NCBI GenBank assembly: GCA_018058095.1 | Contig: JAGPCO010000060.1 | Coordinates: 1 to 43,587 of the forward strand | Length of the DNA stretch: 43,587 bases | Origin: Kofleriaceae bacterium | GTDB lineage: Bacteria; Myxococcota_A; Polyangia; Haliangiales; Haliangiaceae | Reading direction: 5' to 3' | In this document: one piece after another, positions 36,303 through 39,402 of the stretch | Position numbering within the stretch: position 1 is the stretch's first letter | How the letters are laid out: the number at the start of each line of letters is the position of its first letter | Notes under the pieces: generated by a model | What the model saw: the letters and a program-made list of their open reading frames with translations, nothing else | Databases searched by the model: none | What the model was told of the DNA's origin: nothing | Position numbers and translations under genes: made by a program

Positions 36303-38468
36303 ATGCAAAGCCGATGGCTGCACCGGCCACGCCTGCACCGCCCCGGCCCCGGTGTGGCCGAGAAGCGGGCGACCTGGCTCGAGCTGTTCTACGACCTGGT
36401 CTTCGTCGCCGCCTTCATCCAGCTCGGCAACGCGCTGACCGCGCGGGTGTCGCCGCTCGGCTACGCCGGGTTCGCCCTGGTGTTCGCGGCGATCTGGGTC
36501 AGCTGGACCGGCTTCACCTACTTCGTCAACCGCTTCACCGTCGACGACTTCGTGCATCGCCTGCTCGCCTTCGCGCAGATGTTCGCGGTGGTGGCCATGG
36601 CCGTCAGCGCGCCGGCGGCGATGGACGGCGCCCCGGCTCGGTTCGCGATCGCCTTCGCCCTGGCCCAGGCCATCATCGCCGTGCTGTACCTGCGCGCGTA
36701 CCGCCAGGTGCCGGACGGCCGCGCCTACGCCCGCTACTGGGGCGGCGCGTTCGCGGTCGGCGCGGTCGCGCTCGGCCTGTCGGCCGCGCTGCCGACGCCG
36801 TGGGCCTGGGGCCTGTGGGCCGTCGGCCTGGGCTGGGTCGTGACCGCGCCGTTCCGCCGCGGCGGTCGGACCCTGGCCGCCGAGGCCCCGGCCGACGAGG
36901 AGCACATCGGCGAGCGCTACGGCCTGCTCACGCTGATCGTCATCGGCGAGTCGTTCGTCAAGGTGGTGACCGGGCTCGACGACGGCGCCGGCGCGGGCGC
37001 GCTCGGCCCGATCGTGCAGGCCTCGCTGGCGCTGCTCATCACCTGCTCGATCTGGTGGATCTACTTCGACGACGTGGCCGGCTCACGCCTGCGCGAGCAC
37101 GGCATGGCGCCGGTGTTCTGGCTGTACGGCCACCTGCCGCTGCAGCTGTCGATCACCGCCACCGGCGTGGCCATCAAGAAGATCGTCCTCTTCGATCTGG
37201 CCATGCCGGCGCCCGAGGCCTATCGCTGGCTGGTCGGCGTCGCCCTCGGTGGCACGCTGCTGGCGACCGCGCTGCTCGACGCGGTGACCGAGCGCAAGCA
37301 GGCCGAGCTGAGCGACAGCCTGCGGGTGGCCGTGCGCACCGGGTCGGGCCTGCTGGTGCTGCTCTTGGCCCCGGCCGGCGCCGGCATGGACGCCGGCTGG
37401 TACCTCGGCGCCATCGTCGCCATCTGCGTCGGCCAGGTCCTGTTCGACATGGCGATGGCCCCGTTCGAGGTCACGCGCGAAGACCACGAGCGCGAGACCA
37501 TCGCCGACGAGCTGCGCCGGCTGCACGCCGCCGGGCAGACCCGGCGCGGGCCCGAGCTGCGGGTCGGCCGCGGCATCGTCCGGCTCGGCACGCCGTCGGA
37601 CCTCCGGCGCGACTTCTACTTCTGGCTGATCGAGGGCGGCTGGCTGCGCTTCTTCGCGGTCGCCGCCGTCCTGTTCCTGGTCGCCAACGCGTTCTTCGCC
37701 GGGCTGTACCTGCTCGAGCCGGGTTCGATCAGCAACGCCCGGCCGGAGTCGTTCGCCGACGCCTTCTACTTCAGCGTCCAGACCCTGGCCACCATCGGCT
37801 ACGGCAACCTCAACCCGGCCACCGACTACGGCAACGTGATCGCCACCGTCGAGGCCGGCGTCGGCCTCATCGGCGTCGCCCTCACCACCGGCCTGGCCTT
37901 CTCCCGGCTGGCCCGGCCCAAGGCCAGCGTCTTGTTCTCGCGCCCGATCGTGGTCACGACCATGGACGGGACCCGGGTGTTGACCTTCCGCGTCGGCAAC
38001 GCGCGCGGCAACGACGTGGTCGAGGCCTCGGTCAGCGTCACCGCCATGGTCGACACCTTCACCCGCGAGGGCCAGCACCTGCGCAAGCTGATCGACCTGC
38101 CGCTGCGGCGGTCGCGCTCGCCCATGTTTCGCCTGTCGTGGACCGTCATGCACGACCTCGACGCCGGCAGCCCGCTGGCCGACGTCGACTGGTCGGCGGT
38201 GCACGCCTCGACCGGCGGGCGCCTGGTCGGCCTCAACGTCACCCTGGTCGGCCACGACGGCACGTACAACCAGACCATCTACGCGCAGTACACGTACCAG
38301 CCCGAGGACGTCCACCTCGGCCATCGCTTCGTCGACGTCGTCAGCCAGCTGCCCGACGGGCGCATGGCGATCGACTTCTCGCGCTTCCACGACACCGTGC
38401 CCGAGGCGGCGGCGCCGTCGAGCCCGGTCAGCGCGGCCGCGCCCGCTTCTTCGCCGCCGCCGCCTTGA
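36303..38468 (+). CDS. LtrA-domain/KirBac potassium channel fusion protein
   Basis: A 721-aa membrane protein joining two families. Residues about 20-400 match LtrA (bacterial low temperature requirement A): ATWLELFYDLVFVAAFIQL (family W[LV]ELFxDLxxV), multiple helices, and GLLTLIVIGESFVKVVTG. Residues about 431-721 match inward-rectifier K+ channels of KirBac type: slide helix RRDFYFWLIEGGW, TM1, a pore with selectivity filter TIGYG (497-501), TM2, then the cytoplasmic Ig-like domain (VVTTMDGTRVLTFRVGN, RSRSPMFRLSWTVMHDLD). Both parts look intact. The frame spans the junction without a gap, and the start ATG at 36303 is close to the conserved LtrA beginning. Its last 41 bp overlap the convergent CarH-like gene. 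Confidence 0.88.
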   Translation: MQSRWLHRPRLHRPGPGVAEKRATWLELFYDLVFVAAFIQLGNALTARVSPLGYAGFALVFAAIWVSWTGFTYFVNRFTVDDFVHRLLAFAQMFAVVAMAVSAPAAMDGAPARFAIAFALAQAIIAVLYLRAYRQVPDGRAYARYWGGAFAVGAVALGLSAALPTPWAWGLWAVGLGWVVTAPFRRGGRTLAAEAPADEEHIGERYGLLTLIVIGESFVKVVTGLDDGAGAGALGPIVQASLALLITCSIWWIYFDDVAGSRLREHGMAPVFWLYGHLPLQLSITATGVAIKKIVLFDLAMPAPEAYRWLVGVALGGTLLATALLDAVTERKQAELSDSLRVAVRTGSGLLVLLLAPAGAGMDAGWYLGAIVAICVGQVLFDMAMAPFEVTREDHERETIADELRRLHAAGQTRRGPELRVGRGIVRLGTPSDLRRDFYFWLIEGGWLRFFAVAAVLFLVANAFFAGLYLLEPGSISNARPESFADAFYFSVQTLATIGYGNLNPATDYGNVIATVEAGVGLIGVALTTGLAFSRLARPKASVLFSRPIVVTTMDGTRVLTFRVGNARGNDVVEASVSVTAMVDTFTREGQHLRKLIDLPLRRSRSPMFRLSWTVMHDLDAGSPLADVDWSAVHASTGGRLVGLNVTLVGHDGTYNQTIYAQYTYQPEDVHLGHRFVDVVSQLPDGRMAIDFSRFHDTVPEAAAPSSPVSAAAPASSPPPP

Positions 38469-39348
38469 CCGGCAGCGAGTCGGCGAAGTCGGCCAGCGCG
38501 GCCAGGCTGGCGCAGTGGGCCGAGCATCGCAGCGTCGCGCGCAGGTCGTCGTCGATGGCCCGGCCGCCGAGGGCGAGGGCGGCGCCGGCGGCGCGGGTGG
38601 CCGCGTGCAGCGCGGCGACATCGGCGATCAGGCGGGCTCGATCGGGGACGTGGCCGACGCTGAGGGCGAGCAGGCGCGGCTGCCGCTCGGTCACCGCCGC
38701 GACCAGGGTCGCGGCCGGGTGGCCGGCCCCCAGGCCGATGGCGCGCCAGCCTCGCTCGCGCAGGATGAGCTCCCCCAGGCCGATCGCCAGGCTGTACGGG
38801 TCGCCCTCGAGGCTGGCCAGCAGCGCGACCGGGCCGGCGGCGGGCACGGCGATGAGCCCGCCCAGGTCGAACAGCGCGGCGCGCACGATCTCGACGGCGT
38901 GGTGCTCCTGGTACACCTCGAGCTGGCCGATCGACCAGGCGTGGCCGAGCCCGGCCATGACCGGCCCGATCACCTCGTCGCCGATGCGGGTCAGGGGCTG
39001 ACCGGCCAGGTACAGGCCGGTGAGGAGCGCGCGGGCGTCGGCCGCGGCGCCGGCGCGCAGCGCGGTGCCGAGCCGGTCGGCCACATCGCGCAGGGCCCGG
39101 GTCGCGTCGCGGTGGGCGCCGGCCGGCAGCCCGAGCAGGTCGGGCCGGGCCGGGTCGAACCCCTGCGCGCGCAGGAACGCGACCACGTCGGCGATCGGGA
39201 TGCGGCGATGCCCGCCCGCGGTCTTGCGGGTCGGGATGGCGCCGTCATCACACCAGCGCTTGACCGACGACTCGCTGACGCCGATGGCCTCGGCCACCTG
39301 GCGCGGCGACAGATCGCGTTCGGGCGCCGAGCGGCGGCGGGGCGGCAT
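38428..39348 (-). CDS. CarH/LitR-like MerR-type regulator with cobalamin-binding-type fold
   Basis: A 306-aa protein. The N-terminal helix-turn-helix of MerR/excisionase type spans about 13-60 (LSPRQVAEAIGVSESSVKRW, then GGHRRIP). The helical-bundle domain has the W-x9-EH signature (Trp138, Glu148, His149: WSIGQLEVYQEH) that caps adenosylcobalamin in CarH-type photoreceptors. The Rossmann-like B12-binding domain (about 172-290) shows EGDPYSLAIGLG where the ExHxxGL ligand motif is expected, with Tyr185 in place of the cobalt-ligand His and Ala in place of Gly. The fold is kept but ligand binding is doubtful. The C-terminus is a short Lys/Arg tail. ATG 39348 is preferred over GTG 39354. It converges on the channel gene. 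Confidence 0.85.
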   Translation of the reverse strand: MPPRRRSAPERDLSPRQVAEAIGVSESSVKRWCDDGAIPTRKTAGGHRRIPIADVVAFLRAQGFDPARPDLLGLPAGAHRDATRALRDVADRLGTALRAGAAADARALLTGLYLAGQPLTRIGDEVIGPVMAGLGHAWSIGQLEVYQEHHAVEIVRAALFDLGGLIAVPAAGPVALLASLEGDPYSLAIGLGELILRERGWRAIGLGAGHPAATLVAAVTERQPRLLALSVGHVPDRARLIADVAALHAATRAAGAALALGGRAIDDDLRATLRCSAHCASLAALADFADSLPVKAAAAKKRARPR

Positions 39349-39402
39349 GGCCACACAGGGTACACCAGCGGCGCCGGGCGCCGGCGGTGGTGCCCCGGCG
39401 CC

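Follow-up and report, generated by a model that had tools for sequence, protein, structure and literature searches.

An LtrA domain joined in frame to a KirBac-type potassium channel in a Kofleriaceae bacterium and its relatives

Introduction

In Kir channels, the slide helix couples the cytosolic side of the protein to the pore gate. The bacterial channels KirBac1.1 and KirBac3.1 are proteins of about 300 amino acids with a short N-terminus. The LtrA family (low temperature requirement protein A) has had its name since the description of Listeria mutants in growth at low temperature, and it is mechanistically blank. Its stand-alone members, for example the Nostoc proteins annotated as 'low temperature requirement protein A' (L096, L098), end after helix 12.

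Two further groups of channels bear on the locus described here. The NirBac channels of Anaeromyxobacter are unusual KirBac relatives that likewise come from Myxococcota (PMC4607889). Their filters are altered and non-selective, and no fusion has been described for them. Human TMEM175, a lysosomal K+/H+ channel, is built from two six-helix repeats and assembles as a dimer, and the bacterial proteins have a single repeat and assemble as tetramers (PMC7176437). Conservation in TMEM175 is highest in helix 1, which lines the pore, and low in helices 4-6 (PMC7176437).

Here we describe a gene in a 43,587-nucleotide stretch of DNA from a Kofleriaceae bacterium of the phylum Myxococcota (contig JAGPCO010000060.1, hereafter the window) whose product is a KirBac channel with a new accessory membrane module, LtrA, attached to the slide helix. 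In the open literature that was searched we found no paper linking LtrA to TMEM175, none that treats inward rectifiers together with low temperature requirement proteins, and none on an LtrA-Kir architecture.

Results

One open frame encodes both domains

The fusion gene is a single open frame that runs from an ATG to a stop codon with 0 internal stops and encodes 721 amino acids (Table 1). The start codon is consistent with the relatives, in whose alignment M1 is nearly invariant. The first-pass annotation had read this frame as LtrA and KirBac in one polypeptide, and searching the two parts separately against Pfam bore this out. The LtrA model PF06772 matched over its full length (230.5 bits against a cut-off of 31.9, E 4.7e-68, model positions 1-351 of 356), and the same residues were recovered again in a whole-genome search. 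In the C-terminal half, Ion_trans_2 (PF07885) matched residues 462-535 with 46.7 bits and IRK_C (PF17655) matched with 70 bits, each against a cut-off of 22.5. The IRK transmembrane model PF01007 scored 15.4 bits in the 721-aa protein, below its cut-off of 22.7, and matched 8 of 10 relatives. Both domains were present in all 10 aligned fusions. Since the same GC-rich DNA also carries an overlapping open frame of 957 aa, the length of the frame alone is no proof of a gene; the fusion was accepted as real because both of its parts have homologs and the arrangement is conserved, as described below.

The Kir half matched KirBac1.1 (1p7b/7swj) by sequence over residues 422-716 with E ~1e-64 and KirBac3.1 over residues 425-698 with E ~1e-58, and a complete KirBac channel occupies residues ~422-702. 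The slide helix, TM1, a pore helix (residues 484-495), the TxGYG filter and TM2 are all present, and together with IRK_C they follow the same order as in KirBac1.1 and KirBac3.1, with which the Kir half shares 36-41% identity in structural alignment. The filter sequence TIGYG lies at residues 497-501, as had been annotated. In contrast to the KirBacs with their short N-terminus, the fusion places a 12-helix LtrA unit ahead of the slide helix. Counts of lysine and arginine in the loops gave a topology in which LtrA has 12 helices with both its N- and C-terminus inside the cell and the Kir part takes its normal orientation. The linker that joins the two (residues 386-433) was modeled by AlphaFold2 with a pLDDT of 32-48 and varies in length among fusions. 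A frameshift or stop at the junction, which had been named as the observation that would undo the fusion, was looked for; the junction shows no frameshift, and no stop or restart was found near the linker.

A whole-genome profile search found no LtrA elsewhere in the source genome, which does contain 1 further, ordinary KirBac on a separate contig. The neighbors of the fusion gene in the window include genes for an aconitase and for a MerR-like regulator with B12-binding domains. The latter gene is convergent with the fusion gene and overlaps its 3' end by ~41 bases, and beyond it lies a gene for a 745-aa protein of RCC1 repeats. No neighbors of the fusion gene were conserved among the loci, except between two that are near-identical, and the idea of an operon partner or of a signal that could be read from the neighborhood was rejected for this reason.

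Table 1. Position of the fusion gene, its parts and two neighboring genes in the window.
Feature	Residues	Position	Strand	Evidence
LtrA-KirBac fusion gene	721 aa + stop	36303..38468	+	Open frame, Pfam, KirBac matches, start codon
LtrA domain PF06772	22-368	36366..37406	+	Pfam, 230.5 bits
TMEM175-fold unit (predicted), 12 predicted TM helices	25-385	36375..37457	+	AlphaFold2, TMEM175 Z 24.8, positive-inside topology
TM1 motif ELFYD; E27 and D31 invariant	27-31	36381..36395	+	Conservation, structural offset
TM7 motif ERYGLLTLIVIGE; R205 invariant, E204 and E216 nearly so	204-216	36912..36950	+	Conservation
Charged cytosolic linker, low model confidence	386-433	37458..37601	+	AlphaFold2, topology
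Kir slide helix	434-443	37602..37631	+	Model; alignment to KirBac1.1/3.1
Kir TM1	447-470	37641..37712	+	Model
Pore helix and K+ filter (TIGYG 497-501 = 37791-37805)	484-501	37752..37805	+	KirBac alignment, relatives
Kir TM2	508-536	37824..37910	+	Model
Kir cytoplasmic beta domain IRK_C PF17655	543-701	37929..38405	+	70 bits; KirBac3.1 Z 22
MerR-like regulator with B12-binding domains		38428..39354	-	
Protein of RCC1 repeats	745 aa	40446..42683	-	PF25390, PF00415

The fusion is conserved and each half forms a single clade

The first-pass annotation had called for the same architecture to be sought in other genomes. A genome scan returned 10 full-length relatives with 43-52% identity, and altogether we count 43 distinct fusions in different genomes, that is, this protein and at least 42 relatives. 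Fusions with an in-frame junction include those of genomes assembled into as few as 5 (G151) and 20 (G017) contigs. Within the source phylum, 48 of 379 genomes gave an LtrA match. At 26 of the 30 loci that were read, a Kir half followed in the same frame; 3 held a stand-alone LtrA and 1 (L047) was ended by its contig. The last had been considered as a short stand-alone LtrA inside the fusion clade, an interpretation that was rejected because the contig end alone accounts for it. Six more frames of 700-990 aa (L105-L110) are fused. A further frame of 612 aa (L111, genome G231) holds both halves and looks degraded or frameshifted. Two loci (L004 and L010) give the same gene calls as two others (L041 and L042). 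Outside the source phylum, the fusion was found in 2 of the 297 genomes from the phylum to which L001 belongs (Holophagae, Acidobacteriota) and in 1 of the 74 from that of L008.

In phylogenetic trees, the LtrA halves of all 43 fusions formed one clade against the stand-alone LtrAs with a support of 99 (98 with fewer rows), and LtrA proteins outside this clade stand alone. The 36 Kir halves tested likewise formed one clade, separate from 10 stand-alone KirBacs, on a branch with a support of 99. Since both halves are monophyletic, the two domains have remained paired while the fusions diverged deeply (42-53% identity). The simplest reading of these trees is a single old fusion whose parts would have stayed together since. 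None of 15 other genomes of the source genus has the fusion and other genera of the family do, and this patchy presence across genus and family indicates that loss or transfer has occurred. Adjacent stand-alone LtrA and Kir genes, the arrangement expected of a Rosetta-stone pair, were not seen in the stretches read.

The LtrA half is predicted to share the fold of TMEM175

AlphaFold2 run on the fused alignment placed 12 helices in the LtrA half, and LtrA modeled alone reached a pLDDT of 88.5 and a pTM of 0.87. The best structural match of this model was human TMEM175 (Z 24.8, rmsd 4.3, 347 of 416 residues aligned). Entries of human TMEM175 filled structural ranks 1-10, with Z from 24.8 to 19.1, rmsd of 4.0-5.8 and at most 347 aligned residues, against a Z of 8.2 for the best match of any other kind, and in Foldseek TMEM175 was the only match with E<1e-3. 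The models thus predict that LtrA shares the TMEM175 fold. The pattern of conservation is similar in the two families: helix 1 is the most conserved helix in LtrA also, and TM1 and TM7, the equivalents of the pore-lining helices of TMEM175, reach 3.34 and 3.11 bits per position against 2.0-2.6 elsewhere. The values are 2.0-2.2 bits for TM4-6 and 2.2-2.35 bits for TM11-12, in parallel with the weak conservation of helices 4-6 in TMEM175.

Residue equivalences to TMEM175 were derived for the first repeat from the ends of the structural alignments, in which an offset of 10 (LtrA 23 = TMEM175 33) opens the alignment in 8 of 10 TMEM175 rows. At this offset, F29 and D31 in ELFYD would lie opposite F39 and D41 of the human FSD motif, and Y30 takes the position of the serine, so that the FSD motif as such is absent from the LtrA half. 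The putative equivalent of T49, which forms the K+ filter layer of TMEM175, is position 39, occupied by I, L or V in the fusions (I39 here), and that of the I46 gate is position 36, which is A in 41 of 42 fusions. The stand-alone LtrAs differ from the fusion clade at these positions, with V/F and A/T where the clade has A36 and I39. These replacements make K+ conduction through LtrA doubtful.

Sequence comparisons gave a different picture from the structural ones. The TMEM175 model PF06736 had no match at E<=1 in the 721-aa protein and none anywhere in the source genome, and the LtrA profile had no match among PDB sequences. When the LtrA repeats were aligned by hhalign to 13 bacterial TMEM175 proteins, reversed and shifted controls did equally well in 22 of 24 cases for repeat 1 and in 2 of 24 for repeat 2, and profile-profile kinship of LtrA and TMEM175 overall had no support above the controls. 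A search by sequence for an internal repeat within LtrA gave nothing significant. Because the profiles show no kinship and neither the filter threonine nor the gate isoleucine is kept, we do not count LtrA as a member of TMEM175; on the strength of the modeled fold, a distant relationship between the two is nevertheless probable.

Both halves are under selection

The 721-aa protein has all the residues that are invariant in the LtrA family (E27, D31, W68, R86, E204, R205, I212, E216, W251 and W252), and these are conserved no less strictly in the fusions than in LtrAs that stand alone. Among the fusions, E27 and D31 are kept in 42 of 42, W68, R86, R205, W251 and W252 in 43 of 43, and E216 in 40 of 43. 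The stand-alone proteins resemble the fusions in their full-length PF06772 match and in their invariant E27, D31, W68, E204, R205, W251 and W252, the difference being the Kir channel that the fusions add after helix 12. In the Kir half, the filter reads [TS][IV]G[YF]G in every case examined, and unlike the NirBacs the fusions keep a K+ filter. With the LtrA family residues intact and the K+ filter kept, both halves are under selection and look functional. The earlier suggestion of a redox signal found no support: the cysteines vary among the relatives, and C248 in TM8, for instance, is replaced in L003 and L007.

Some fusions depart from these patterns. E216 or E204 is lost in L007, L110 and L111, of which L110 (G083) and L111 have fast-evolving LtrA halves that lack E216 (and in L110 also E204) and have kept their Kir matches. 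Filters of the fusion clade other than TIGYG are TVGYG, TIGFG, TVGFG and SIGYG; the TIGFG, TVGFG and SSIGYG filters come from L005, L050, L071, L030 and L035.

Discussion

The sequences give good support to a KirBac-type K+ channel that would carry one LtrA unit per subunit: the fusion is genuine, old and conserved, and no canonical part is missing from its Kir half. The mechanism we favor is a tentative one. The gene product would be one subunit of a tetrameric, K+-selective KirBac-type channel, and each subunit would contribute an N-terminal 12-helix LtrA unit with the predicted TMEM175 fold as a covalent 1:1 regulatory partner. LtrA ends on the cytoplasmic side and leads through a flexible, charged linker of ~48 residues to the slide helix of the Kir part. 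The buried acids that are conserved in LtrA (E27, D31, E204 and E216) may sense a stimulus, probably protons or cations, and the response of LtrA would act through the linker on the slide helix and thereby set the probability that the Kir pore is open. The first-pass annotation had likewise supposed that LtrA gates the channel, and had pictured four LtrA bundles around one pore. That arrangement would hold for a tetrameric Kir part, but the picture overlooked the channel fold predicted for LtrA. Because the 12-helix form of TMEM175 is a dimer, four LtrA copies could pair into two pore-like units beside the one Kir pore, in which case they may be more than sensors.

In a second reading, less likely than the first, one chain carries two conduits: the LtrA units would provide a TMEM175-like cation or proton path of their own, the Kir channel would pass K+ independently or as charge balance, and the fusion would fix stoichiometry and location only. 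The predicted fold (Z 24.8; Foldseek), the position of the conserved acids in helices equivalent to the pore-lining ones of TMEM175, and the pore that 12-helix TMEM175 builds as a dimer (PMC7176437) all point this way. Against it, the filter threonine and the gate isoleucine are absent at the putatively equivalent positions, the LtrA and TMEM175 profiles are no more alike than controls, and we found no evidence of conduction by any LtrA. A wider form of the argument would place all LtrA proteins within the TMEM175 superfamily, as a bacterial branch that transports protons or cations, with two LtrA-pair pores around one Kir K+ pore in the fusion and one ion path gating or balancing the other; we regard this as unlikely.

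If LtrA were instead a scaffold, trafficking or lipid-organizing unit, it would only position the Kir channel or help its assembly. The flexible linker, variable in length and modeled with low confidence, is as compatible with a mere tether as with a gating rod, and the lack of conserved gene neighbors pointing to a signal also fits. A passive anchor, however, does not need buried charges, and their conservation in fusions, as strict as in stand-alone LtrA, disfavors this unlikely reading. Finally, the genomes are mostly draft metagenome assemblies, and a frameshift divides one of the 10 full-length relatives (L008). The fusion might on that account be an error of assembly or binning, a frameshift product or two genes read through by accident, but the chance of this is negligible, and the idea was rejected on the independent genomes, with their 43 distinct in-frame fusions, a single clade for each half and an uninterrupted junction.

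For the Kir field, LtrA is an accessory module of a new type, joined to the slide helix. The fusion ties the functionally obscure LtrA family directly to potassium transport, and the conservation and single origin of this fusion to a K+ channel, combined with the very strong TMEM175 fold match, argue directly for experiments on LtrA as a protein that handles ions. Should the predicted fold prove right, LtrA acquires a testable function, and the fusion is a natural covalent construct in which the Kir current could report it.

In genome G430, which belongs to the same phylum as L001, a stand-alone LtrA (L070, 1408-2859) has at its C-terminus a zinc finger of the UBP type (PF02148, 43.7 bits) and represents a second kind of LtrA fusion. 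In L005, the short contig that bears the fusion gene also has, at its edge, a minus-strand frame of 413 aa for a second K+ channel, with a TVGYG filter and an apparent nucleotide-binding regulatory region.
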